Below are positions 1-54,478 of a stretch of DNA of 64,000 nt, piece by piece (position 1 is the stretch's first letter; each line of letters begins with the position of its first letter). The notes under the pieces were generated by a model. It saw only the letters and a list, made by a program, of their open reading frames with translations. It made no database searches and was not told the DNA's origin. The DNA is taken from NCBI RefSeq assembly GCF_001610895.1, contig NZ_CP011273.1, positions 4,092,001 through 4,156,000 on the forward strand. Direction: 5' to 3'. A program made the position numbers and the translations under genes. This DNA comes from Planctomyces sp. SH-PL62. GTDB lineage: Bacteria; Planctomycetota; Planctomycetia; Isosphaerales; Isosphaeraceae.

Positions 1-2591
1 CCGCCCTGCTCCAGCGCCACGGGATCCGGGTGGAGGAGCTGCGCGAGGACCTCGACCTGGAGGTGGAGGTCTCTCGCATCGACGAGATCACCCGACCGGA
101 GTCGTCGGGATGGGATCGCCAGGACGTCCGCGAGCTGCGGGTCTCGCCGAGGACCGAGCCCCGCCGCGTGCTCGCCGGAACCCTCGTGGTGCGCGACGCG
201 CAGCCGCTCGGGGCGCTGGCCGCCTACTTGCTCGAACCGCGCTCGGAGGACGGGCTCGCGACCTGGAGGACGTTTCCCGGCCTCAGGGCGGGGGATGACT
301 TCCCCGTGCTGCGGCTGGCCGCGCCGGCCGAGCTTCTGACGACCCCCGCCCGGGATTACGCCGAGCCGAAGTCGGGCCTCCCGATCCGTTTCGACGCGGC
401 GGGACGAGTCGTCGACGGCTCTTTCGGCGGCTCGGCGATCGGCGTCGAATGGCTGGACGACGAGCACTGGCTGCGAGGGGGACGCGACGGCGTGCTGAAG
501 GTCGACGCCCTCACCGGCCGCGCCGAGCCGTTCGTCAAGTCGGATCAACTCTTGCAGGCGCTTCGGCTCATCCCCGGTCTCGAAGAGAAGGCCGCGGAGG
601 AACTCTCGCGACGGCTGGCGTCGGACGTCGTCGCGGGGGACCGTCCCCCGTCGTCGCGCCCCCGGCTCGATCCGACCCATAAGGCGCTCCTCTTCGAGCA
701 CGAGCACGACCTTTATTTCGTCGCCCTCGACGGCTCGAAAGGGGTACGACTCACGAACGCCCCCGGCGACGAGACCGACGCCCAGTTCAGCCCGGACGGG
801 CGACGGGTGAGCTTCGTCCGCGACTTCGACCTTCATGTCGTCGACGTGGACGCCCCGACCGAGCGGGCGCTGACCACCGGCGGGACGGACGCCCTGCGGC
901 GCGGTCGGGCCGACTGGGTCTACTTCGAGGAGATCTTCAATCGATCGTGGACGGCCCACTGGTGGAGCCCCGACTCGCAGCGGATCGCGTTCCTGGAGTT
1001 CGACGACGCCGAGGTCGGCACGCTGACGATGCTCCACGACGAGGAGTCCCCGCGCCGGGTGGAGGTGAATCGCTATCCGAGGGCCGGCGAGCCCAACCCC
1101 CGCGTCCGGCTGGGGATCGTTCCCGCGCAGGGAGGCCCGGTCCAGTGGGCCGACCTGTCGAGCTACTCGGCCGAGGCTTTCCTGATCAGCGGCGTGAGTT
1201 GGCGCCCCGACTCGCGTTCCGCGTTCGCGTTCGTGCAGGACCGAGTCCAGACCTGGCTCGACCTGCTGGAAGTCCCCGCGGACGGCGCCGCTCCCCACGT
1301 CCTCTTCCGCGACCGGACGAAGGCCTGGATCGCCGACCCGAGTCCCCCTTCGTTCCTGGACGACGGCTCGTTCCTCTGGCTGAGCGAGCGCGACGGCTGG
1401 AAGCACATCTACCATTACGCGACCGATGGTTCTCCGAAGGGGAGACTGACCGAGGGGGAATGGGAAGTTCGCTCGATCCAGCACGTCGATCGCGCGACCG
1501 GCGAGGTCGCGTTCCTCGGCACCAGGGACGCGCCGATGGCGACGCAGCTCTACAAGGTGCGGCCGGGGGGGGCCGTCGAGCGGATCACCTCGGGAGTCGG
1601 GAGTTACCAGACCGAGCACAGCCCTGACGGCCGCCGCTTCGTTGCGACCTGGTCCGACCTGTCCACGCCATCGCGCGTGAAACTCCACGCCGCCGACGGA
1701 TCGTTCGTGAGGACGGTCGACTCGAACCCCGTCCACAAGATCCAGAGCTACCGCTTCGGGCCTCGCGAGCGGTTCCAGATCCCGACGCGGGACGGGTTCC
1801 TGATGGAAGCCGAACTGATCCTGCCGCCGGACCTGGACCCGAACGTCAAGCATCCGGTCTGGTTCACGACTTACGGCGGTCCGCACACGCCTGTGGTCAA
1901 CGACGCCTGGGCGAACGGCCGTGTCTGGGACCAGGCTCTGGCCGCGGAGGGCTTCATCGTGTTCCGCGTCGACCCCCGCCCGGCCAGCGGCAAGGGGGCG
2001 GCCTCGGCGTGGACCGCCTACCGGAAACTGGGCGTGCAGGAGCTTGAAGACGTCAAGGACGCGATCGCCTGGCTCAGGCGAAAGCCCTTCGTCGACGGCG
2101 ACCGGATCGGCATGACCGGGCACAGCTTCGGCGGCTACCTGACCGCCTTCGCCATGACCCACTCCGACCTCTTCGCCTGCGGGATCGCCGGCGCGCCCGT
2201 CACCGATTGGCGCGACTACGACACCATCTACACCGAGCGGTTGATGGGGCTCCCCCAGGACAATCCCGAAGGCTACAAGGCGTCGTCGGTGGTGGCCGCC
2301 GCGAAGGACCTGCGCGGCAAGCTGCTCCTGGTGCACGGCTCGGTCGACGACAACGTCTCGGTCCGCAACACGATGCGACTGGTCGAGGCGCTTCAGGAGG
2401 CGGGGAAGGATTTCGAGCTGATGATCTATCCCGGCTCTCGGCACGGCATCGCCAGCGGCCACTACAGCAGGCTGATGCTCGACTTCATTCGTCGCAAGCT
2501 GGCGACGCCGAAGGCCGCCGCCCCCTGCCCCGATCCGATTCCGGCCTCGCCGCCCGCCCAGGCGGCGACGGCGGGCTTCGTCCATCCCTGA
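1..2591 (+). CDS. M14 carboxypeptidase (C-terminal part) fused to S9 dipeptidyl-peptidase IV-like protease; 5' end outside window
   Basis: The reading frame is open from the first bases, so the gene begins upstream and a GTG at 30 is only an internal codon. The first ~100 residues read like the tail of a planctomycete M14 zinc carboxypeptidase (AGTLVVRDAQPLG, then YLLEPRSEDGLATW). They run without a break into a DPP-IV/S9 protein: a beta-propeller region of roughly 450 residues with TD-x-FSPDG repeats, then an alpha/beta-hydrolase domain. Counting from base 30, the nucleophile is Ser699 in GHSFGG, the acid is in GSVDDNV (Asp773/774) and the histidine is His805 in SRHGI, so the S9 triad looks complete. 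The likely role is extracytoplasmic peptide degradation with two exopeptidase activities in one chain. A Pro/Ala-rich tail follows. Whether the M14 catalytic residues are present cannot be seen here. Confidence 0.85.
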   Translation, partial: ALLQRHGIRVEELREDLDLEVEVSRIDEITRPESSGWDRQDVRELRVSPRTEPRRVLAGTLVVRDAQPLGALAAYLLEPRSEDGLATWRTFPGLRAGDDFPVLRLAAPAELLTTPARDYAEPKSGLPIRFDAAGRVVDGSFGGSAIGVEWLDDEHWLRGGRDGVLKVDALTGRAEPFVKSDQLLQALRLIPGLEEKAAEELSRRLASDVVAGDRPPSSRPRLDPTHKALLFEHEHDLYFVALDGSKGVRLTNAPGDETDAQFSPDGRRVSFVRDFDLHVVDVDAPTERALTTGGTDALRRGRADWVYFEEIFNRSWTAHWWSPDSQRIAFLEFDDAEVGTLTMLHDEESPRRVEVNRYPRAGEPNPRVRLGIVPAQGGPVQWADLSSYSAEAFLISGVSWRPDSRSAFAFVQDRVQTWLDLLEVPADGAAPHVLFRDRTKAWIADPSPPSFLDDGSFLWLSERDGWKHIYHYATDGSPKGRLTEGEWEVRSIQHVDRATGEVAFLGTRDAPMATQLYKVRPGGAVERITSGVGSYQTEHSPDGRRFVATWSDLSTPSRVKLHAADGSFVRTVDSNPVHKIQSYRFGPRERFQIPTRDGFLMEAELILPPDLDPNVKHPVWFTTYGGPHTPVVNDAWANGRVWDQALAAEGFIVFRVDPRPASGKGAASAWTAYRKLGVQELEDVKDAIAWLRRKPFVDGDRIGMTGHSFGGYLTAFAMTHSDLFACGIAGAPVTDWRDYDTIYTERLMGLPQDNPEGYKASSVVAAAKDLRGKLLLVHGSVDDNVSVRNTMRLVEALQEAGKDFELMIYPGSRHGIASGHYSRLMLDFIRRKLATPKAAAPCPDPIPASPPAQAATAGFVHP

Positions 2592-2607
2592 TCGGCGCAA
2601 CGACGAA

Positions 2608-2636
2608 CGGCCGGTCGGGGCGAGCCCGACCGGCCG
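2608..2636. terminator. Hairpin between convergent genes
   Basis: A 12-bp perfect inverted repeat (CGGCCGGTCGGG, loop GCGAG, then its complement) lies 17 bases after the peptidase stop and 35 bases before the stop of the convergent BON gene. Neither side has a long T-run. It probably serves both directions as a hairpin terminator. Confidence 0.6.
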
Positions 2637-2670
2637 TCGATGTCGCATACGTTTCGTCGGTCAGGCCGAC

Positions 2671-3420
2671 TCAGTAAGCGAAGATGCCGAAAGGATAGGG
2701 GGTGAAGAACGGCCGGGTGTAGTTCTTCTTGAAGTCGAGCCACCAGATGCCGTCATCCCAGCGGAGGGTGACCGCACGCCAGTCGAGGGGGACTTCCGGG
2801 TAGGGGTAGAAGGGGCCGATGTTCGGCCAGGCCTGCCAGGGGTAGGCGGTGGGGTAGCCGACCGCCGAGAAGTTGCCCGGAGGGGCGTAGCTGGGCCAGG
2901 CGTAGTTCGGCTGGTTCTGGACCGCGCCGCCCGCGGCGCCGCCGGCCGGGCCTTCGGGGAGCGGGCCGCCGTCATTGACGAAGCCGCCGGGGCCGGCGCC
3001 GGGGCCGCTCACGACGCCTTCGCCCATGCCGACGGGGCCGCCGCCGACCACGCCGCCGTGGCCGAAGTGGCCGCCGCCGTGGCCGCCCATCGCGACCTGC
3101 TGGGGAACGTACTGGGCCGGGCGGACCGCCTGGTCGCCGACCTGAATGTGATCGACCACGCCCGTCACCCCGGCGACCCGCTGGGCGCGAGACAGGGCTT
3201 CAGACTTGATCTCGGGGCTGGCGGCGACGCCGGAGAGCGTCACCAGGCCGCCCTGGGCTTCAATCTCGATCCGGGTGGAGGCCAGCGTCCGGCTGGTCCG
3301 CAGGGCTCCCGCGACCGAGTCGGCGACCACCTGGTTCGGATTGGTCGCCTGGCCCATCGCCATCGGAGCCGTCACGGCCATGAGACCGAGCACGGCTGAA
3401 ATCCGTTTCAGTCCAACCAT
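2671..3420 (-). CDS. Secreted BON-domain protein
   Basis: A 249-residue protein. The ATG at 3420 is preferred because GGAGAAGGA lies about 10 bases upstream; an in-frame ATG at 3444 is possible. It opens with a signal peptide (MVGLKRISAVLGLMAVTAPMAMG). The next ~75 residues fit a single BON domain: an alternating pattern ending in GGLVTLSGVAASPEIKSEA and GVTGVVDHIQV. BON domains are thought to bind phospholipid or envelope surfaces. The second half is rich in Gly, His and Pro (for example GGHGGGHFGHGG), then becomes aromatic-rich with many Trp, Tyr and Pro. I recognise no enzyme domain there. An envelope-associated role is inferred from the signal peptide and the BON domain. Confidence 0.75.
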   Translation of the reverse strand: MVGLKRISAVLGLMAVTAPMAMGQATNPNQVVADSVAGALRTSRTLASTRIEIEAQGGLVTLSGVAASPEIKSEALSRAQRVAGVTGVVDHIQVGDQAVRPAQYVPQQVAMGGHGGGHFGHGGVVGGGPVGMGEGVVSGPGAGPGGFVNDGGPLPEGPAGGAAGGAVQNQPNYAWPSYAPPGNFSAVGYPTAYPWQAWPNIGPFYPYPEVPLDWRAVTLRWDDGIWWLDFKKNYTRPFFTPYPFGIFAY

Positions 3421-3804
3421 TTTGGGCAAGTCCTTCTCCCGCATGGATCCGACTCGACCTGGGGGCGAACGGCGAGCGGGGCGTCGTTCGGGTCGGTGAA
3501 CAATCCTTCGTGAAGGTCGTCGTCCAGCTCGCGAAAGCCAGCGGCGATCCAGGGGCGAGCCCCGATCATCGCGGACGTGTCGCCGAGAGGGACGGATCGA
3601 AGGACGGGCGGACCAATGATGGGAGTCAGTGAGGTGGGAGTCGCAATGCGCCAGTCCGACGATTCAGAACCTGATTCGCCGGAACTATGACGCACGGTTT
3701 GGGGGCGGTCAAACGGCGGGCGAAAAAAAAACGGGGCCGTGTGGCCCCGGGAGTGTCAAGTTGTTGGTGTCGTGAAACTTACGTTGCGGAAAAAAGCCCC
3801 GGAA
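3421..3804. other. Intergenic region, 384 bp
   Basis: This lies upstream of the BON gene and downstream of the small membrane protein gene. It contains the minus-strand terminator at 3723-3749. Overlapping short reading frames here have no recognisable protein character. The BON gene promoter should lie in this stretch, but I see no convincing -35/-10 pair. Confidence 0.5.
3723..3749 (-). terminator. Rho-independent terminator of the small membrane protein gene
   Basis: On the minus strand a 7-bp stem (CGGGGCC, loop ACAC, GGCCCCG) is followed directly by nine T residues (the A-run at 3723-3731 on the plus strand). It sits about 55 bases after the stop codon at 3805. This is the most canonical intrinsic terminator in the window. 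Confidence 0.85.
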
Positions 3805-4122
3805 TCAGGCCGCCTTGGGCTCGACGAGGTTGCGCGTCGGGCTGACGGCATCGATATTGCTGTTTCCCATGGTCATGCCGATCAGGATGAGCGTCATGGT
3901 TCCACCGGCGAAGATGGCGAACTCGGAGTGGTGACGACCGCAGAGGGCCCCGGAGATCCCAAGGCCGAAGAGGGACAGGATCACGCCGATCCGCCCCAGC
4001 CCATACCAGGCGGAGCGATAGGGGGTGAGGCGGTGGAGACAGAGCGAGAGGGCTCCACAAGTCTGAAAGAACATGACCAGCATCTCGAACACGCCGCTAA
4101 AATTGAGATGAGAGACGGACAT
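3805..4122 (-). CDS. Small three-helix membrane protein of unknown function
   Basis: A 105-residue protein starting at ATG 4122, with AAGGAAGGAG about 11 bases upstream. Three hydrophobic stretches, at roughly residues 12-32, 42-62 and 67-86, suggest three transmembrane helices. A polar C-terminal tail ends in EPKAA. I do not recognise the family. Support for a real gene comes from the Shine-Dalgarno sequence, the consistent hydrophobic pattern, and a textbook terminator just downstream that isolates it as a single-gene transcript. Reading frames in the other two minus-strand phases give arginine-rich sequence typical of out-of-frame GC-rich DNA. Confidence 0.65.
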   Translation of the reverse strand: MSVSHLNFSGVFEMLVMFFQTCGALSLCLHRLTPYRSAWYGLGRIGVILSLFGLGISGALCGRHHSEFAIFAGGTMTLILIGMTMGNSNIDAVSPTRNLVEPKAA

Positions 4123-4425
4123 GGCCTGACAGGCTCCTTCCTTGGTTCCTGTTTCGGGTCGTCAGTGAGTTGGCGGATTCTGTCGGATGTGAGGGCTCGG
4201 CGAAGTATGCGTCCTGCTCCTAGAGCACTCGCCGTACCAAACGGCCCGGACCGTCGATTCAGGTGGAGATGGGGCGGGTGCAAGTCGGAAACTTGAGGAA
4301 AAATCGGCCCGTCGCCGAAAATTTCGGCGCGGGCCTTGGTGTTTTTACACGAACCGTCTCAAAATTCTTGCAGAAAGCTCCAGTCGGCCGCCTCGCGTGA
4401 CGAAGCGACCGACGGGAGGCGGCGG
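4123..4425. other. Intergenic region, 303 bp
   Basis: This lies between the lipoprotein gene (stop at 4426) and the small membrane protein gene, both on the minus strand. It includes a slightly AT-richer stretch around 4320-4380. I see no clear terminator or promoter. Confidence 0.4.
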
Positions 4426-5415
4426 TCAGCGTCGTCGTCCCCCGCGGGCGGGCGCGTTCTTGAATTCGGTGGGACCCGAGACGTCCAGAACCCCCCAACC
4501 CTTCTTCTCCCTTCGGACGGTGACGGTCCGCTGGAGCCAGCCGCCGTCCTTGAGCGTCTTCCGGATGGTGACGCCCTGCCGTCCGGTGCTCTTGACCTGG
4601 TTGTCCCCGGCGTCGACGAAGCCTTCGAGCTTGGTCGCGAGGTCGTCGAGTTCGGCGTCGGAGATGCTCTGGTCGATGATCCGGGAGAAGAACTCGCGGT
4701 ACTTGCCCCCCTCATCGGTGCTGGCGCGAAGCGCCGTGGCCTCGGAGAGACGCTCGCGATCCTTCTGCTTGAGAGCATAAAGAAAGGCTTTCACGGCGCC
4801 GTGGGCCGAGGTGGTGTCGCCGGGGTCGTTCGCCCCGGGGCCGCCGCTGCCGCCCAGGCCGAGCGCGCCGGGGATTCCCGACGAACCCTCCTCACCCCCG
4901 AGAAACCCCGGCCCTCGCTCGCCGCCACGTCCGCCCAGTCCGCCTGGAGGCGTCATCAGGTCGCCGGCGCCGGGTTGGGGCCCGAGCTCGGCGCCCGGGA
5001 AAGCTCCCGGCGTCGAGCCGGGTGCGGAGTCCGTTTCGGCGGGGGCCGACGGGGGAGACGCCGCGCCGGTCGCGAGGGCCAGCAAGTCGGCGGTGTCCGA
5101 TTTGGTCGCGGCGGCCTGGACGTCGGCAGGCGGCGTCGTCTCGACGGCCGCCGAGGGCTGACCGGCCGCCGGGGGCTGACCCGCCGGCGGCGGGGCGGCG
5201 GGTTCGGCGATCGCCTCGCCTGCCGGCGGCGGCGGCGCTTCGGCCGCGATGGGCTCGGGCGCGGTCGGCTCGGCCGGTCCGTCCCCGGCGTCTTCGGTCG
5301 CGGCCAGTTCGTCGGAGCCGGGATCGGGGACGTCTCCCCCGCCGCACCCCGCAAGGCCGAAGGCCAGAATCCCCGATAGTCCGAGGCCGTACAGCCAGGT
5401 GTTCGAAGGTCTCAT
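4426..5415 (-). CDS. Lipoprotein with long Pro/Ala/Gly-rich linker and C-terminal globular domain
   Basis: A 329-residue protein. The start at ATG 5415 is chosen because GGAGGG lies just upstream and the first 25 residues form a lipoprotein signal with lipobox LAGC; the longer frame upstream is polar and implausible. About 200 residues of Pro/Ala/Gly/Glu-rich low-complexity linker follow. The last ~125 residues look folded, from HGAVKAFLYALKQKDRERLS to a beta-rich part ending GWGVLDVSGPTEF. That layout resembles NTF2-like or DUF4878-type domains, in which a helical start and a beta-sheet form a small pocket. The function is unknown. The protein should be anchored in the envelope with the C-terminal domain held away from the membrane. 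Confidence 0.75.
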   Translation of the reverse strand: MRPSNTWLYGLGLSGILAFGLAGCGGGDVPDPGSDELAATEDAGDGPAEPTAPEPIAAEAPPPPAGEAIAEPAAPPPAGQPPAAGQPSAAVETTPPADVQAAATKSDTADLLALATGAASPPSAPAETDSAPGSTPGAFPGAELGPQPGAGDLMTPPGGLGGRGGERGPGFLGGEEGSSGIPGALGLGGSGGPGANDPGDTTSAHGAVKAFLYALKQKDRERLSEATALRASTDEGGKYREFFSRIIDQSISDAELDDLATKLEGFVDAGDNQVKSTGRQGVTIRKTLKDGGWLQRTVTVRREKKGWGVLDVSGPTEFKNAPARGGRRR

Positions 5416-18901: not shown

Positions 18902-18931
18902 TCGCGACGTCCGGATGTCTTCGAAATGAAG

Positions 18932-18961
18932 AGGCGTGGGGGATTTCGCCCCCACACGCCT
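18932..18961. terminator. Hairpin between convergent unknown pair and YTV gene
   Basis: The stem AGGCGTGGGGG pairs with CCCCCACACGCCT with one bulged base and loop ATTTCG. It lies 30 bases after the stop of the plus-strand unit and 30 bases before the stop of the convergent YTV gene. No T-run follows. Confidence 0.55.
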
Positions 18962-18991
18962 GGGATCGGGTCGGTCGACGAGGGTCAGGGC

Positions 18992-20980
18992 TCAGCGAAC
19001 GGTCTTCTGGGCGTCCCGCGAGGCCTGCGGGGACGGCGCCGGTGCCGGCGCCGCCGGGGCGACGGGAGCGGGCGCAGGGACCGTCACCGGGACGAGCACC
19101 TGCCGACAGACGGGGACCTGGCGGGCGACCCGCCGCTGCTGAATCTGGTAGGTCGTCACCGGGACGGTCTCTGGCACTTGCACCGCGACCTGGCGAGTGA
19201 GGTTCTCGGTCACCTGCTTCGTCCGTTGCTGGTACGTGGTGACGGGGACGGTCTCCGGGACCTGGACGGCGACCTGCCGGGTGACGTTTTCGGTCACCTG
19301 CTTCGACTTCTGCTGATAAGTGGTGACGGGGACGGTCTCCGGGACCTGGACGGCGACCTGGCGGGTGACGTTCTCGGTCACCTGCCGGGACTGCTGGCGA
19401 TAGGACGTCACGGGGACGGTCTCGGGGATCTGGACGGCGACCTGCCGGGTCACGTTCTCGGTGACGAACCGCCGCTGCTGCTGGTAGACCGTGACGGGGA
19501 CGGTGACCGGCACCTTGACGCCGACCTGCTGGGTCGTGTTCTCGGTGACCTGCTTGTAATGGGTCGTGGGGACGGTCTGGGTCCGCTGCTCGGTCGTGTA
19601 GACGGTCCTGGTGACGGGGACGGTCTCGCTGACCTGCGAGGCCTGCATGGTGGTCACCGGAACCTCGATCGTGCGGACCTCCTGGCTCGGCGCGTCCTCG
19701 GTGACGCTGACCGGCACCATCTCGGTCGTCGTCCTGGGGACCTGGACGACGTTCTGGACTGGGACCGTCCTGGTACGCGTCTGGGGGATGTAGGTCGTCT
19801 CCGGGATGAGACGGACGATGGGCCGGGAGACGTAGACCTGCTGGGTTGTATAGGAGACCTGGCAGCCGTCGACCGTCGCGGCGGACGCGTTGTTCAGGAC
19901 GCCGGCGAAAAGTCCCGCGCCGCCGTGGCCGCCGCAGTGGCCGCAGCCCCCGCCCCGACTCAGCCGATGGCCGCACTTGTGGCCGCAGCCGTGACCGCCG
20001 CCGAGGACCGTTCCGATCGAGTTGCCGCAGGGATCGACGGCCGGGGCCGAGGTGTAGACCGGGACCGTCCGGCACTCATAGCCCCCCTGCTCCTCGACCA
20101 CCCGCCGGTTGGTCGTGACCGGGACGTTCTCGGTGTAGCACTGGTTGACGTAGCTCGTCATGACCTCCTGGGTCATCACCGTCTTCGTCTGCGGCTGCAT
20201 GATCGTCCTGGTGACGGGCTTCATGACCGTCACGAACTGCTGCTGCTTCTGCATCGTCGTGACCGGGTTGTAGACGGTCCGGGTCACAGTCTCGTTGACG
20301 GTCTCCTGCTTGGGCGTGCTCACTGTGTAAGTCTGCTGGATGTTGACGGTCTCCGGGACCGTCCGGACGACGGGGACGGTCTGGGTGCGAAGCTCGGTGC
20401 GGTACTGGGTCTGGTTGACCGTGACCGGCACGTTCTCGACGACCATCCGAGTGTTGGGGACGGTCTCGGTCCGGTACTCGGTACGGAACTGGGTCTGGTT
20501 GACCGTGACGGGGACGCTCTCGACGATCGTTCGGGTGGTTGGGACGGTCTCGGAGCGGTACTCGGTCTTGTACCGGGTCTCGTTGGTCGTGACCGGCACG
20601 CTCTCGACGATCGTCCGTGTGACCGGGACGGTCTCGGTGCGATACTCGGTTTTATACCGGGTCTGATTGGTCGTGACCGGGACGGTCTCGCACTCAATCC
20701 GTGTGACGGGGACGGTCTCGGTGCGGTACTCAGTTCGGTAGCGGGTCTGGTTGGTCGTGACCGGTACCTGGACGCACTCGACGTCGTAGACGGTCTCGTA
20801 GGTCACCTGGGTCTGGGGTGCCAGGATCGTGGTGGTCGCGGCGGCCGCCTGGCTGGTTGGGGAAGGTCCCTGGGCGGAGGCGGTCGGCTCATCGGCGGCC
20901 GTCGCCGCTCGGGCCAGGAAAAGCCCGTAGATCAAGCCCGCCACGGCGGCGCGGCGGAAAGAGGCCCGCTCGACTCTCAT
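18992..20980 (-). CDS. YTV-type repeat envelope protein with two blocks of 28-residue repeats
   Basis: A 662-residue exported protein. ATG 20980 starts a signal peptide (ERASFRRAAVAGLIYGLFLARAATAA); a TTG at 21001 is less likely. Nearly all of the mature chain is Val/Thr/Gln/Tyr/Pro repeats with ETVPVT as the recurrent core. The N-terminal block has five 28-residue units of the form VPVTTNQTRYRTEYRTET plus 10 residues. The C-terminal block has five 28-residue units with QVTENVTRQVAVQVPETVP. Between them lies a Gly/Cys/His-rich segment (GGGHGCGHKCGH, GGGCGHCGGHGG) that could bind metal or cross-link. This fits the planctomycete YTV family, which as I recall is linked to cell-wall fractions. 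A structural envelope role is therefore likely. Confidence 0.85.
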   Translation of the reverse strand: MRVERASFRRAAVAGLIYGLFLARAATAADEPTASAQGPSPTSQAAAATTTILAPQTQVTYETVYDVECVQVPVTTNQTRYRTEYRTETVPVTRIECETVPVTTNQTRYKTEYRTETVPVTRTIVESVPVTTNETRYKTEYRSETVPTTRTIVESVPVTVNQTQFRTEYRTETVPNTRMVVENVPVTVNQTQYRTELRTQTVPVVRTVPETVNIQQTYTVSTPKQETVNETVTRTVYNPVTTMQKQQQFVTVMKPVTRTIMQPQTKTVMTQEVMTSYVNQCYTENVPVTTNRRVVEEQGGYECRTVPVYTSAPAVDPCGNSIGTVLGGGHGCGHKCGHRLSRGGGCGHCGGHGGAGLFAGVLNNASAATVDGCQVSYTTQQVYVSRPIVRLIPETTYIPQTRTRTVPVQNVVQVPRTTTEMVPVSVTEDAPSQEVRTIEVPVTTMQASQVSETVPVTRTVYTTEQRTQTVPTTHYKQVTENTTQQVGVKVPVTVPVTVYQQQRRFVTENVTRQVAVQIPETVPVTSYRQQSRQVTENVTRQVAVQVPETVPVTTYQQKSKQVTENVTRQVAVQVPETVPVTTYQQRTKQVTENLTRQVAVQVPETVPVTTYQIQQRRVARQVPVCRQVLVPVTVPAPAPVAPAAPAPAPSPQASRDAQKTVR
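19136..19555 (-). repeat. Five tandem 84-bp units (C-terminal YTV block)
   Basis: Five consecutive 28-codon units share a VTEN-x-TRQVAVQ-x-PETVPVT core. The last three are nearly identical at both protein and DNA level, suggesting recent expansion by recombination or replication slippage. Confidence 0.85.
20348..20767 (-). repeat. Five tandem 84-bp units (N-terminal YTV block)
   Basis: Five consecutive 28-codon units have the pattern VPVT-x-NQT-x-Y-x-TE-x-R-x-x-TVP. The period is the same as in the C-terminal block but the motif differs, so the two blocks probably descend from one ancestral 28-residue unit. Confidence 0.8.
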
Positions 20981-21454
20981 GCTCGTCGTCCCCCGATGCA
21001 AATTTTGGAGTGGTCGCGACTCCCTTCCATAGGCTTCAGGTCGGGAAGCTCTCCATAGTTTGCCCGAACGGCCTCAAGGCCCTGGGTCGCACGCAATTCT
21101 CATTTCGCCCAGGCCGCCTAATGATAAGCAATCCCTGAACCACGTTGTCTCTTTTCCCCAATCTAGGTCGAAAAATGGGAGGGGGGTCGGCCCGGGCGAC
21201 TCATCGGATCCGGCGTCGGCGGGCGCACCCTCGGCGGGGGATGGGCTCGACCGGAGAGAACGGCCACATGCCTATGGGGTACATAACTGGATTTGCTGAT
21301 CTTTGATCGTCGGGTTGAGGCGGCGGGGGAATTGCCGTAACATGAGCCGGTCTAGGCGGGTCGGACGGTACTCGGGCGGCCGTTGGGCCGGGGAGGCCGC
21401 GTGAAGCCCGCCGGTTCCGATCCCATTCGTCGAAGCTCGCGAGCGTCGTCATCC
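20981..21454. other. Divergent intergenic region, 474 bp
   Basis: This lies between the YTV gene and the NYN gene. It holds the candidate promoter at 21315-21343 for the rightward gene. The part at 21055-21170 is AT-richer and may contain the YTV promoter, but I cannot assign it. There are no convincing genes. Confidence 0.4.
21315..21343 (+). promoter_or_regulatory. Candidate promoter for the NYN-LOTUS gene
   Basis: TTGAGG (21315-21320), a 17-base spacer, then TAACAT (21338-21343). Each hexamer matches four of six consensus positions. It lies 58 bases before the GTG at 21401 and 112 before the ATG at 21455. Confidence 0.4.
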
Positions 21455-22345
21455 ATGTCTAAAACCGAGCATGAGCGAGAGCGCAACCTGGCCGTCTTCA
21501 TCGACCTGGAAAACCTGGCGATGGGGTTTCAGAGCCAGCGGAAGGTCAAGTTCGACATCCAGAAGGTGCTCGAACGGCTGGTCGAGAAGGGTAAGCTGAT
21601 CGTCAAGAAGTCGTACGCCGACTGGAGCCGGTATCCGAACTACACGGCCCCGTTCCACGAGTCGGCGATCGAGCTGATCGAGATCCCCAAGCGCTCCCAG
21701 ACGGGGAAGAACTCGGCCGACATCCGCCTGGTCGTCGACGCGATGGACCTCGCCTGGAGCAAGCCGCACGTCGACACGTTCGTGATCGTCTCCGGCGATT
21801 CCGACTTCTCGCCGCTGGTCTCCAAGCTGAAGGAGAACGGCAAGCACGTCATCGGCCTGGGGATGAAGGGGTCAACATCGGAGCTGCTCCGCGACAACTG
21901 CGACGAGTTCATCTACTATGAGGACCTCGAACGCCAGGAGCAGAACGAGCAGCAGCTGGCCATCGACCTGAAGGCCTATCTCCCGACCAACCTGGACGAG
22001 AAGCAGCGCGAGGTCTTCAGCCTGCTGGTCGAGGCCTGCTCGGCCCTCCGTCGCGAGAATCACGAGGTCCTCTACGCCTCGATGATCAAGGACACCATGA
22101 AGCGGAAGATGCCGTCGTTCGACGAGAGCTACTTCGGCTACCGCAGCTTCACCCATCTGCTCGAAGACGCCGACAACCTGGAGCTGGTGGATATCGAGCG
22201 CAACCCCAAGAGCGGAACCTACATGGTGACTCGCGTCAGCGGTGAGGGAGCCGACGCGGCCCGCCCGCCCTCGGCGCCTGGTGACCGGCCGTCCCCCTCC
22301 ACCGCTCCCCATCGCGGTCGAGGCCGCCAGGGCTCGCATCGCTGA
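21455..22345 (+). CDS. NYN-domain (LabA/DUF88) protein with C-terminal LOTUS/OST-HTH domain
   Basis: A 296-residue protein. ATG 21455 gives MSKTEHERERNLAVFIDLENL, typical of the family start. A GTG at 21401, with GGGGAGG 4-5 bases upstream, would add 18 Ser/Arg-rich residues and is a real alternative. The NYN (PIN-like) domain spans about residues 10-150, with the acidic metal-site residues in AVFIDLENLA, SADIRLVVDAMD and IVSGDSDFSPLV. A winged-helix LOTUS domain follows at about 170-265 (LDEKQREVFSLLVEACSAL, FGYRSFTHLLEDA). The tail is Arg/Pro-rich. NYN proteins are predicted RNases and LOTUS domains bind RNA, including G-quadruplex RNA, so a role in RNA processing is likely. Confidence 0.88.
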   Translation: MSKTEHERERNLAVFIDLENLAMGFQSQRKVKFDIQKVLERLVEKGKLIVKKSYADWSRYPNYTAPFHESAIELIEIPKRSQTGKNSADIRLVVDAMDLAWSKPHVDTFVIVSGDSDFSPLVSKLKENGKHVIGLGMKGSTSELLRDNCDEFIYYEDLERQEQNEQQLAIDLKAYLPTNLDEKQREVFSLLVEACSALRRENHEVLYASMIKDTMKRKMPSFDESYFGYRSFTHLLEDADNLELVDIERNPKSGTYMVTRVSGEGADAARPPSAPGDRPSPSTAPHRGRGRQGSHR

Positions 22346-22515
22346 GACCTCGCGGCGATTTCGGGCTCCGATCCGAAGTGATTCTGGAAAGCGTCGGGGA
22401 TCGATCGTCGTACTCCCCAGTGGTGATCCGCGCCGGGCGATTCGTGTCGTCGGGCGCGGTCCCTTTCCGAATTTCCGGCGTGGAAACCGCGTTGAAATCG
22501 CCAGCGAGGATCAAC

Positions 22516-23763
22516 ATGACCAGGATTCGATCGGGGGCCGTAGCGGTGATCGTCGCCGTCGCGGCCGGCGCATTCGATGTCGCCCAGGGCTCGGAAGAGA
22601 AGCCGTCGGTGGAGGCGGTGTCGGCGGTGTCGCGGTTCACGGTCGACCTGTACAGGACGCTGGCCGGAGGCGGGGACGGTGGCAACATCTTCTGCTCGCC
22701 GCTGAACGTCGCCACGGCGGTCGAGATGACGGCCGCCGGGGCCAAAGGCGAGACCGCCGAGCAGATCGCCCGGACCCTCCATCTCGACGGCCTCGGCGAC
22801 GCCGCGCACGACGGCCTGGGCGGCCTGGTCGACGCCGTTCGTGGGTCGTCGAAGCCACGGCCCGAGGGTGAGGCGGAAGACCGCTCGACCGGGCTCTGGA
22901 CGGCCAACGCGGGCTGGTTCGACGGGAGCGAGAAGATCCTTCCGGACTTCACGGCGCGGCTCGAACGCTCCTACCGGGCCGAGCCCCACCTCGTCGATTT
23001 CGCCCATTCCCCCGACGCCGCTCGCGAGACCATCAACCGCTGGGTCGCCGAACAGACCCGCGACAAGATCCGCGACCTGCTCAAGCCCGAACACGTCCGG
23101 CCCGGCACATCGTTCATCCTCACGAGCGCTATTTATTTCAAGGGCCTCTGGGCCTTCCCGTTCGCGGCCAAGGCCACGACCGACGACGAATTCCGGGCGG
23201 CAGGCGGCTCCGTCCCGATCAAGATGATGCACCAGACGGCGACCCGCCTCGCCTACTTCGAGGACGACGCCGTGCAGGTGGTGGCGCTGCCTTACCGGGA
23301 CAGCTCGCTCGACATGCTCGTCGTCCTCCCGCGCAAGGTCGACGGCCTCGGCGAGCTGGAAGCCGCGCTGACCGCGGAGAAGATCGACGCCTGGTCCTCG
23401 GGCCTGCGCCCCGGCCGCGTGAGAATGAGCCTCCCCCGGTTCAAGTCGACGGCCGAGTTCGACCTCAAGGAGGTCCTTTCGAAACTCGGCATGCCGTCGG
23501 CCTTCGACCCGGCCCGCGCCGACTTCTCGGGGATCACCGGCGATCGGGGCGTGTACCTTTCGGCGGTCGTCCACAAGGCGTTCGTCGAGGTTGAGGAGAC
23601 CGGCACGGAGGCCGCAGCCGCGACGGCCGTCGTCGGCGTACGGAGCGCGGCGATCAGCCCCCAGCGCGAGTATCAGTTCCGCGCCGACCGTCCGTTCCTC
23701 TACCTGATCCGCGATAGGCAGGCGGGCGCGGTCCTTTTCATGGGCCGGCTCAGCCGCCCCTGA
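22516..23763 (+). CDS. Secreted serpin (inhibitory-type hinge)
   Basis: A 415-residue protein, the normal serpin length plus a signal peptide. ATG 22516 has GAGG 6-8 bases upstream, and MTRIRSGAVAVIVAVAAGAFDVAQG is the export signal. Serpin landmarks include NIFCSPLNVATAVEM, FILTSAIYFKGLWAFPF, VVALPYRDSSLDMLVVLP and the C-terminal RPFLYLIRD and VLFMGRL. The reactive-loop hinge EETGTEAAAATAVV has the small side chains required of inhibitory members. The scissile region is GVRSAA, with Arg376 at P1 or P2 depending on loop length, which suggests a trypsin-like target. It probably protects the cell or its secretions against serine proteases. Its last 14 bases overlap the convergent deacetylase gene. 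Confidence 0.92.
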   Translation: MTRIRSGAVAVIVAVAAGAFDVAQGSEEKPSVEAVSAVSRFTVDLYRTLAGGGDGGNIFCSPLNVATAVEMTAAGAKGETAEQIARTLHLDGLGDAAHDGLGGLVDAVRGSSKPRPEGEAEDRSTGLWTANAGWFDGSEKILPDFTARLERSYRAEPHLVDFAHSPDAARETINRWVAEQTRDKIRDLLKPEHVRPGTSFILTSAIYFKGLWAFPFAAKATTDDEFRAAGGSVPIKMMHQTATRLAYFEDDAVQVVALPYRDSSLDMLVVLPRKVDGLGELEAALTAEKIDAWSSGLRPGRVRMSLPRFKSTAEFDLKEVLSKLGMPSAFDPARADFSGITGDRGVYLSAVVHKAFVEVEETGTEAAAATAVVGVRSAAISPQREYQFRADRPFLYLIRDRQAGAVLFMGRLSRP

Positions 23764-52626: not shown

Positions 52627-54478
52627 AGCTTCTTTCGGCAAGATGCTGGCCCTCGGCCTCGTCTCCCTCCTCGCGGTGGGGGGCGTGGCCCTGGTCAGCA
52701 TCCCCGGCATGAGCAAGCCGATCCGCGGATTCTTCGCCCCGACGGCGCTCGACATCATCCCATTCGAGATCAAGCGTGGGCCCCTGCCGATCACCGTCAG
52801 CGAGAAGGGCTCGCTGGAAAGCGCCAAGAACGAAGACGTGTACTGCCAGGTGGAAGGTCAGACCACCATCATCTTCATCCTCCCCGAGGGAACCCGGGTG
52901 AAGAAGGGGGAGCTGGTCTGCGAGCTCGACTCGGCCGCGCTTCGCGAGTCGCTCATCAACCAGAAGATCTCCACCCAGGGGGCCGACGCCGCCTACCAGC
53001 AGGCCAAGCTGACCCGCGAGGTCGCCGAGATCGCCGTCAAGGAATATGAAGAGGGCATCTACCAGCAGGACAAGGCGACCATCAACGGCGAGATCAAGCT
53101 CGCCGAATCCGACCTCGCCCGCGCCGCCGACCGCGTCGACTGGGCCAACCGGATGTTCGACAAGGGCTACGTCTCCCGCGCCCAGAAGGTCTCCGAGGAA
53201 CTGAACCACCAGAAGGCCCAGTTCTCCCTCGAACAGGCCATGAGCAAGTTGACGGTGCTCGAGAATTTCACCAAGGCCAAGACCATCAAGGAGTTGAAGA
53301 GCGACGTCGAGAAGGCGCTCTCCGACGAACTGGCCAAGAAGCAGACCTTCGAGCTGGAACGCGAGAAGGAAGCGAAATTCGAAAAGCAGATCGTCAACTG
53401 CAAGCTCTTCGCCCCCGGCGAAGGGCTCGTCGTCTACGCCAACGATCCGGGCCGCAACTTCGGCAGCAACACCCCGCAAGTCGAGGAAGGGGCGACGGTC
53501 CGCGAACGTCAGAAGATCTTCAGCCTGCCTGACATCGGCAACATGCAGGTCAACGCCAAGATCCACGAGTCGCAGATCGACAAGATCGTCCCCAAGATGA
53601 AGGCCAGGATCCGGGTCGACGCCTTCGCCGACATGGAGCTTGAAGGGAGCGTCGTCGACGTGGCCCCCCTGCCCGACCCGTCCAGCTTCTTCAGCTCGGA
53701 CATCAAGGTCTACACGTCGCACATCCGGATCGACAACCCGCTCCCCGGACTCCGCCCCGGCATGAACGCCGAGGTCGTCATCCTCGTCGACCGCAAGGAG
53801 GACGTCCTCACGGTCCCGGTGCAGGCGATCCTGGAATACAAGGGGAAGGACCACCTGGCGGTCCGCACCCCGAACGGCTTCGATCGCAAGGAAGTCGCCA
53901 TCGGGGCCACCAACGACAAGTACGTCGAGATCGTCGAGGGCGTCTCCGAAGGTCAGATCGTCGCCCTCAACCCGATCACCTTGCTGAGCGACGAGGAGAA
54001 GCGCGAGCTGTTCGCTGTCGGCCGCGGTGCGGCCAAGAAGGATTTCGCCAAGGGCGAAGAGGGCGCCGAAGGTTCGGCCGAAGCCGGAGGCCCAGGTGTT
54101 CCGGGCGGACCGGGCGGGCCCGATGCGGCCAAGGCTAAAGGCAAGGCGGGTCGTCGCGGCGGTGCCGGAGGCGGTGCGGCTGGAGGCATGGGCGCCTTCA
54201 TGGAGAAGATGAAGAACGTCCCCGCCGAGGACCGCGCCAAGCTCAAGTCGGCCTCCGACGAAGAGCGGGCCGAGATTCTCAAGAAGGCCGGATTCAGCGA
54301 CTCCGAACTCGATCAGATGCGGCAGATGCGCGCTGGCGGCGGCGGCGGCCCCGGCGGCCCCGGCGGCGGCGGCCCCGGCGGTCCCGGCGGCGGCGGCCCT
54401 GGCGGTCCCGGCGGCGGCGGCCCTGGCGGTCCCGGCGGCGGCGGTCGTGGTCCGGGCGGTCCCGGGGGAGGCAACTGA
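52532..54478 (+). CDS. HlyD/MacA-like membrane fusion (adaptor) protein with Gly-Pro repeat tail
   Basis: A 648-residue protein. GTG 52532 is chosen because GGGAGG lies about 8 bases upstream inside tolC. The N-terminal anchor is KMLALGLVSLLAVGGVALVS. The barrel/lipoyl region contains PITVSEKGSLESAKNEDVYCQVEGQ and IFILPEGTRVKKGELVCELDS. A long coiled coil follows (~residues 140-270), then the beta-barrel (MQVNAKIHESQIDKIVPKMKA) and LRPGMNAEVVILVDRK. Beyond ~residue 520 the chain is low complexity: an EGAEGSAEAGG linker, a charged helix (VPAEDRAKLKSASDEERAEIL), and four 8-residue GGGGPGGP repeats. It links the TolC channel to the inner-membrane ABC pair. Confidence 0.9.
   Translation: MNFSLQNTEAPASAPAPATRDLPTLQRPKRRKASFGKMLALGLVSLLAVGGVALVSIPGMSKPIRGFFAPTALDIIPFEIKRGPLPITVSEKGSLESAKNEDVYCQVEGQTTIIFILPEGTRVKKGELVCELDSAALRESLINQKISTQGADAAYQQAKLTREVAEIAVKEYEEGIYQQDKATINGEIKLAESDLARAADRVDWANRMFDKGYVSRAQKVSEELNHQKAQFSLEQAMSKLTVLENFTKAKTIKELKSDVEKALSDELAKKQTFELEREKEAKFEKQIVNCKLFAPGEGLVVYANDPGRNFGSNTPQVEEGATVRERQKIFSLPDIGNMQVNAKIHESQIDKIVPKMKARIRVDAFADMELEGSVVDVAPLPDPSSFFSSDIKVYTSHIRIDNPLPGLRPGMNAEVVILVDRKEDVLTVPVQAILEYKGKDHLAVRTPNGFDRKEVAIGATNDKYVEIVEGVSEGQIVALNPITLLSDEEKRELFAVGRGAAKKDFAKGEEGAEGSAEAGGPGVPGGPGGPDAAKAKGKAGRRGGAGGGAAGGMGAFMEKMKNVPAEDRAKLKSASDEERAEILKKAGFSDSELDQMRQMRAGGGGGPGGPGGGGPGGPGGGGPGGPGGGGPGGPGGGGRGPGGPGGGN
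54334..54472 (+). repeat. Gly-Gly-Pro coding tandem repeat (24-bp unit)
   Basis: About four units encoding GGGGPGGP, followed by a degenerate GGGGRGPGGPGGGN, form the C-terminus of the adaptor protein. Such GC-only repeats are prone to slippage and unit-number variation. Confidence 0.8.

Follow-up and report, generated by a model that had tools for sequence, protein, structure and literature searches.

A cysteine-poor relative of planctomycete YTV-type wall proteins, proposed to fold as a giant antiparallel β-hairpin

YTV-type wall proteins and the window protein

The YTV proteins (Pfam PF07639) of planctomycete cell walls are the closest described relatives of the protein treated here. They are reported to be major wall constituents in Gemmata (PMC5287468), and in a wall preparation of Tuwongella two Cys-rich members were top-scoring and were recovered solely from the Tris/SDS-soluble fraction S3 (PMC8567305). 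The accessible portions of these wall papers give no fold or assembly principle for the proteins. YTV is also included in a table of modelled repeat families, with a predicted TM-score of 0.59 and no template; a published model that bears on the fold may exist, to judge from the accessible part of that source, in the text of which the word “hairpin” is absent (PMC8078820). No hairpin description of YTV-type proteins was found in searches of the open-access literature, nor any earlier description of a giant length-matched hairpin as a structural principle in bacterial envelopes.

The window is a stretch of 64,000 nucleotides from Planctomyces sp. SH-PL62 (NZ_CP011273.1, positions 4,092,001 to 4,156,000 of the forward strand). 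It contains the gene of a two-arm repeat protein (Table 1). This is probably a secreted structural envelope protein from a Cys-poor YTV-type branch, in which the arms would form the two strands of one giant antiparallel β-hairpin and the hub its loop. If true, a giant hairpin with length-matched arms explains the two different repeat blocks and the hub, and predicts which residues touch. It also suggests how the unusual protein walls of planctomycetes may be built.

Kinship with YTV proteins was approached through profiles. The Pfam model PF07639 (cut-off 21 bits) has no match to the window protein at E<=10, and a search of the source genome gave 12 matches in three other genes, none of them in the window gene. 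Other Pfam models at E<=10 gave sub-threshold matches only (DUF4469 at E=0.006, PilN, SCIMP) and NCBIfam gave none. The three PF07639-positive paralogs lie at about 5179.8-5182.2, 1899.8-1901.4 and 2190.6-2191.5 kb (G000:C1), and their ORFs are very unequal, with 806, 534 and 309 residues. The 534-residue paralog matches the window protein at E=1.7e-10. When an alignment of the window clade (A1, 13 sequences) was compared by hhalign with one of the YTV clade (A2, 10 sequences), the result was E=1.2e-49. Because repeats can inflate a full-length profile score, a second comparison was confined to the hub with its flanks; this gave E=1.8e-17 and a score of 99.3, whereas 100 column shuffles reached at most 18.0 and a reversed A2 gave 21.3. 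The two alignments have single-copy landmarks in common, namely VTTxRxVVE.xGY before the hub and V(Y/F)VSRPVxRxxxETxYVxxTxxRxVPV after it, and several members have VDxCGNPV-like starts.

The window protein resembles the PF07639 proteins in its order of a signal-like start, N arm, hub and C arm, and the motifs that flank the hub align. It differs in having 28-residue instead of 16-residue units, arms that are nearly free of Cys and no PF07639 match. Homology to PF07639-positive proteins is colinear and extends outside the repeats, as in the YTV-type superfamily broadly defined; with 11 Cys in 662 residues, the protein lacks the high cysteine content of that superfamily. The name “YTV protein” given in the first-pass annotation therefore fails by the Pfam definition, but holds by profile homology with the hub included. 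This comparison supports placing the window protein among the YTV-type wall proteins of planctomycetes, as part of a Cys-poor branch. The YTV-type family is thus wider than PF07639 and includes Cys-poor members.

The A1 profile at E<=1e-20 has a match in 41 of 45 Isosphaeraceae genomes and in all 26 of the more complete ones, counts in which window-type and YTV-type genes are mixed. In a sample of 199 genomes from the phylum, 14 had a PF07639 match. The source genome belongs to the Isosphaeraceae genus that includes Paludisphaera soli. The relatives in Paludisphaera, Aquisphaera and Singulisphaera (Isosphaeraceae) have the 28-residue units of both arms and the anchors of the window protein; they differ in unit number and, in some, in a hub motif that is lost or replaced. 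At one locus (L051), two relatives stand head-to-tail on the plus strand, about 40 bp apart (2174-3379 and 3423-5051). The first, of about 400 residues, is Cys-rich (18 Cys) with the hub CGHKCGGGCGLCGG; the second, kin of the window protein, is 544 residues long, contains 7 Cys and has a reduced hub. L061:4118-5113 (+), in a MAG labelled Neomegalonema, encodes a Val/Thr-rich repeat protein of comparable style, by way of either a mis-binned contig or transfer.

Table 1. Positions in the window of the repeat gene, its parts and the neighbouring NYN gene
Feature	Residues	Coordinates	Strand	Basis
Two-arm repeat protein gene	662 aa	18992..20980	-	ORF list and translation; stop at 18992-18994
Signal-peptide-like start (MRVERASFRRAAVAGLIYGLFLARAATA)	1-28	20897..20980	-	Read from sequence; AF2 helix 4-21
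Ser/Ala/Pro/Gln linker	29-48	20837..20896	-	Sequence and AF2 model
N arm, first strand of predicted hairpin	49-310	20051..20836	-	AF2 strands; arm-length and register tests
Five N-block 28-residue units	72-211	20348..20767	-	TRF, lag identity, unit comparison
Hub, predicted hairpin loop	311-373	19862..20050	-	Strand-free in AF2 model; between pre-hub and post-hub anchors
Cys/His/Gly cluster (CGHKCGH...CGHCGGH)	328-354	19919..19999	-	Sequence; not kept in all relatives
C arm, second strand of predicted hairpin	374-635	19076..19861	-	AF2 strands mirror N-arm strands about i+j=684
Five C-block 28-residue units, last one degenerate	490-629	19094..19513	-	TRF, lag identity, unit comparison
Pro/Ala-rich C-terminal tail	636-662	18995..19075	-	Sequence and AF2 model
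Divergent NYN-domain gene, upstream of repeat gene; synteny marker		21383..22345	+	Pfam NYN E=1.5e-35

Repeat blocks and hub

Translation of the repeat gene starts at the ATG at 20980, and an in-frame TTG is present at 21001. An RBS-like GGGGGA, read by eye, lies at 20989-20994, 8 nt ahead of the ATG. The start of the protein is Sec-like as judged by eye and the protein is presumably secreted; its composition is rich in Val, Thr, Gln and Pro. An antisense ORF of 710 codons (18926-21058, plus strand) spans the whole gene; it is regarded not as a gene but as the mirror frame of a repeat gene rich in G+C.

The two 28-residue blocks with an exact 84-bp period, as initially described, were borne out. 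TRF reports 84-bp arrays at 20369-20764 (4.7 copies, 81% matches) and 19145-19555 (4.9 copies, 80% matches), both with 0% indels. Residue identity at lag 28 is 0.71 for residues 61-215 and 0.70 for residues 471-630, whereas 2000 residue shuffles gave no value above 0.38 at the lags tried. The blocks differ in unit sequence, VPVTTNQTRYKTEYRTETVPVTRTIVES in the N block and QVAVQVPETVPVTTYQQKSKQVTENVTR in the C block, and a Cys/His/Gly segment stands between them, again as first read. A shorter rhythm is also present: in 44 of the 45 Val/Thr-rich ORFs compared, the window's included, Thr autocorrelation is higher at lags 4, 8 and 12 than at the lags beside them.

The last three C-terminal units had been regarded as almost identical and as a sign of ongoing repeat expansion. 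Adjacent regular late units do share 82-89% of their residues, but the DNA is only 83-85% identical, and only 64-74% of the codons for shared residues are the same. The late units are for this reason not fresh copies; the divergence of their synonymous codons rules out a fresh duplication and leaves the expansion claim unsupported for the window gene. Near-perfect DNA copies are found in relatives, with most units of G002 at 96-100% and one N-block pair each in G001 and G040. Repeat homogenisation thus happens in the clade, and not recently in the window gene. Counted by regular expression, clade members have 4-7 units in the N block and about 3-7 in the C block. Loss of the period or of the unit count in relatives had been named as grounds for refuting the first reading. 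The comparison did not refute it: clade members retain the 28-residue period, and the unit numbers vary, with the arms often, not always, in step.

The stretch CGNSIGTVLGGGHGCGHKCGHRLSRGGGCGHCGGHGG contains 5 of the 11 Cys of the protein and 5 of its 6 His; delimited by the anchors, the hub has 6 Cys. A cross-linking or metal site had been proposed for this segment. Of 20 relatives inspected, 11 have the CGH...CG motif (the window protein, P. soli, G005, G004, G001, G011, G016, Aquisphaera insulae, G040 and two others). The hub of G002 is of a His/Gly type that keeps 6 His with only 2 Cys. The hub is a Ser/Gln/Ala/Pro linker in both Singulisphaera proteins and also in L027 and L031. Since both Singulisphaera hubs are such linkers, the Cys/His hub is not essential to the fold. 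Its constant role would be that of a loop, of which metal binding or cross-linking would be an optional property. The plan of two blocks around a hub is common to related proteins of several families and not specific to the window protein.

The distribution of cysteine differs between groups. In the YTV-type group there are 9.1 Cys per 100 residues at the N tip, 7.4 in the hub and 15.3 at the C tip, with 0.9 and 5.6 in the arms; this density at the tips and hub would put many cross-links at the two ends of a rod. In family f2 the arms are Cys-rich as well (5.7 and 10.1 per 100 residues). The arms of the window clade (11 members) have 1.1 and 0.7. The existence of Cys-poor members makes disulphide lacing of the arms unlikely as a basic building principle.

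Arm lengths and register between the arms

An AlphaFold2 (AF2) model of the window protein was computed from an alignment of 14 sequences with one chain as input. Nearly all of the model except the termini and hub is strand, in long strands and not coils, and residue i pairs with 684-i. All five pairs of strands mirror each other exactly about i+j=684 (49-118/566-635, 121-124/560-563, 127-160/524-557, 167-169/515-517 and 175-310/374-509). Confidence in the model is low: the mean pLDDT is 51.5 and the pTM 0.20, with 356 of 662 residues, most of the repeats among them, below 50. Blocks with a pLDDT of 70-79 lie at residues 241-300 and 381-440. The YTV relative L057, modelled as a single sequence without an alignment, gave no hairpin (pLDDT 40); its N arm was helical and its C arm solenoid-like, with 7-residue strands every 16 residues. 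A Foldseek search with the low-confidence window model gave generic long-hairpin matches with TM <=0.14 among the best 50 of 73, and kinship was rejected. The stem hairpins of pore-forming toxins, which emerged from Foldseek only, are likewise long and two-stranded; the likeness is one of generic geometry, and hmmsearch of PDB sequences with A1 gave 0 matches at E<=0.1.

The mirrored strands of the model predict arms of equal length. Four short anchor profiles (N cap, pre-hub, post-hub and C cap) were placed in 73 of 129 ORFs from 184 loci. The other 56 were left out, with no anchor above threshold; twelve dropped ORFs passed a motif filter and were scanned later, any of the loci L095-L184 that lacked an anchored protein was scanned again, and the rest, with probable antisense frames among them, stayed out. 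In 56 of the 73 anchored proteins, the window protein included (N 247, C 255 residues), the C arm exceeds the N arm by exactly 8 residues, and in 60 the difference is within 4 of this value. The exact matches have N arms of 151-299 residues and loops of 14-80 residues. Anchor placement failed or was doubtful in some proteins, and the loop length of 113 in L113 seems to reflect a misplaced anchor. Among the 17 proteins that are not exactly matched, L021, L022, L023 and L156 are off by one or more whole units.

Because many of the proteins are close relatives, the 25 distinct (N,C) length pairs were permuted; 9 of the 25 are exact against 1.6 expected (p=2e-5). Phylogenetic contrasts of arm lengths on the anchor tree (42 nonzero of 72) gave r=0.53 with a permutation p=0.0001. 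By parsimony, joint changes of both arms fall on 6 branches where 2.5 are expected, only 3 of them with changes equal to within 4 residues; the N arm alone and the C arm alone change on 13 branches each. Support from the tree for co-change of the arms is only moderate. The arms are matched in length as a giant hairpin requires.

Register was scanned by counting residue pairs at each offset from the AF2 register in the 56 length-matched proteins, which form four groups (window-type 8, YTV-type 22, family f2 21, other 28-residue 5). With residue classes that were picked after the first scan had been viewed, pairs of Thr/Ser/Asn/Gln peak at offset 0 in all four groups, and the excess of opposite over like charges is highest at 0 or +2 in every group. 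The window-type group has 141 opposite-charge pairs at +2 where 30 are expected, and no like-charge pairs where 31 are expected. The YTV-type group has a single like-charge pair at offset 0 (142 expected), the fewest of the offsets; its opposite-charge pairs at -3 and +13 exceed those at 0 (2.86 and 2.97 against 1.71 times expectation). The window protein has, among 254 pairs, 13 of opposite charge at offset 0 and 21 at +2, and no like-charge pair at either. Its best sum is 698 in the numbering of the L013 ORF, equal to 684 in that of the 662-residue protein, with z=8.3 and none of 200 shuffles as high. Residue complementarity falls on one i+j sum and is absent for parallel pairing, which has no register common to the four groups and was rejected.

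Facing cross-strand disulphides within the hairpin are not supported, as Cys-Cys pairs of family f2 are depleted at offset 0 (1 seen, 18 expected). These pairs are enriched at other offsets, among them -9 (64, 17 expected) and +3 (56, 19 expected).

A scan free of anchors, with about 690 sums per protein, counted a register as found when the best sum lay within 4 of the predicted one. This was so for 47 of the 56 length-matched proteins and not for 9. Controls with the C arm reversed, rotated or block-shuffled gave 2, 2, 2; 2, 1, 2; and 3, 0, 2 of 56. The 17 length-mismatched proteins had the hub register in 5 cases. Among these mismatched proteins, L031, L092 and L156 have a register moved by the length excess, L021 and L023 keep theirs in place, L022, L038, L093 and L180 show shifts of other sizes, and in L103 and L111 the best sum lies far away.

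Proteins outside the discovery set were also scanned. The 12 further ORFs gave z>3 in 11, made up of 10 of the 11 sense-strand proteins and one antisense ORF; L030 had z=1.9. The antisense ORF (L034) had z=7.0, so that the statistic reads correlation at a register, not β pairing as such, and is not frame-specific. The centres of the 11 sense proteins, including L063 (from a MAG labelled Limnoglobus) and the 806-residue paralog of the source genome, fall in the Cys/Gly hub as seen by eye. A further 37 ORFs were tried, of which 35 were evaluable (a fragment had been picked for L145 and L153), with 14 other loci left out as duplicates or ORF-less; z exceeded 3 in 34 of the 35. Family f5 has a different hub, and 21 of its 27 evaluable proteins have the centre at one point of this hub, between ...WDPC and CCRCVY... 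and variants thereof; in L127, L133, L139, L141, L143 and L152 it is shifted. The sole miss, L175 (the YTV-type gene of G045; z=-1.1), has a stop just after the hub and has lost nearly all of its C arm, and it served as a natural negative for the register signal. Seven neighbouring window proteins scanned for register gave z from -1.1 to 0.8.

The proposed hairpin, its alternatives and the gene neighbourhood

Homology to YTV proteins, matched arm lengths and a conserved antiparallel register are supported by these computations. In the proposed structure, the two repeat arms, of about 255-262 residues each, would be the strands of the hairpin, one end of which would be closed by the Cys/His/Gly hub; the N- and C-terminal linkers would meet at the open end. 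Each N-arm residue i would face the C-arm residue 684-i, in a register held by a Thr/Gln ladder with four-residue spacing and by complementary Lys/Arg-Glu pairs. A β strand extends by about 0.33-0.35 nm per residue, which would give the window hairpin a length of about 85-90 nm. Such hairpins may stack sideways into the wall, and hubs with Cys/His may cross-link or bind metal at the loop end. A structural role in the envelope or wall is plausible, the wall location being suggested by the published relatives.

The arms might instead pair antiparallel between two molecules, as a swapped dimer or staggered polymer. Length matching and register would be equally expected of this arrangement, repeats allow a staggered assembly, and the arms of some relatives differ by whole units. 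It is nevertheless unlikely: the 14-20-residue loops of L053, L025, L032 and L031 would join the arms easily in cis, and the AF2 monomer pairs in cis, though it was given one chain only. Pairing within one chain is accordingly what the short loops suggest.

Improbable, too, is an arrangement in which each arm would be its own β-solenoid or stack, each unit of 16 or 28 residues making one coil, with the stacks of the two arms side by side. Curli, ice-nucleation and other β-solenoids stack one unit on the next and are, like the window protein, extracellular or surface repeat proteins rich in β structure. The regular units would suit such stacks, equal coil counts would also match the arm lengths, and the L057 model has the corresponding strands in its C arm; the residue-level antiparallel matching of charge and Thr/Gln at one conserved register is not predicted by stacks, however, and the signal in the window protein lies between two arms of the chain, not unit on unit. 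A low-complexity and largely disordered surface or matrix protein, with repeats for spacing or elasticity, is very improbable. The Val/Thr/Gln/Pro-rich composition and the low AF2 confidence would fit it, as would the faster divergence of the protein from its P. soli counterpart (77-79% identity) than of the two immediate neighbours (95% and 93%). This divergence is not above that of the serpin (75%) and little above that of other nearby genes (DUF1549 protein 81%, histone-deacetylase-like protein 86%), and the strict period, matched arm lengths and conservation of register across several families speak against disorder.

Whether the single-chain hairpin can be extended to YTV-type wall proteins of the class Planctomycetia in general is about an even call. 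These proteins would then be giant two-stranded β-hairpins of roughly 35-120 nm, the arms of which gain and lose units together and so stay in register. They would be tiled into the wall, with cross-links in those that are Cys-rich at hub and ends. As several hairpin lengths are encoded in one genome, they would act as rods or rulers.

The neighbours of the repeat gene in the window are, by Pfam, DUF1501 and DUF1549/1553 proteins, one protein without a Pfam match, the NYN protein, a serpin, a histone-deacetylase-like protein and a transketolase. No operon is evident, because the nearest upstream gene is divergent and the nearest downstream gene convergent. An NYN gene stands beside the repeat gene in 5 of 18 loci searched (L047, L048, L049, L055 and L060), several of the loci being cut by contig ends; this neighbour is present in P. 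soli and A. insulae. The serpin gene (22378-23763, plus strand) adjoins the NYN gene and is matched in the flanks of L047 and L048. Elsewhere in the window, a 24-bp tandem array at 54337-54444 (plus strand, 97% matches) encodes, as read by eye, the Gly/Pro tail of a membrane-fusion-like protein, the gene of which directly precedes an ABC-transporter-like ATPase ORF.
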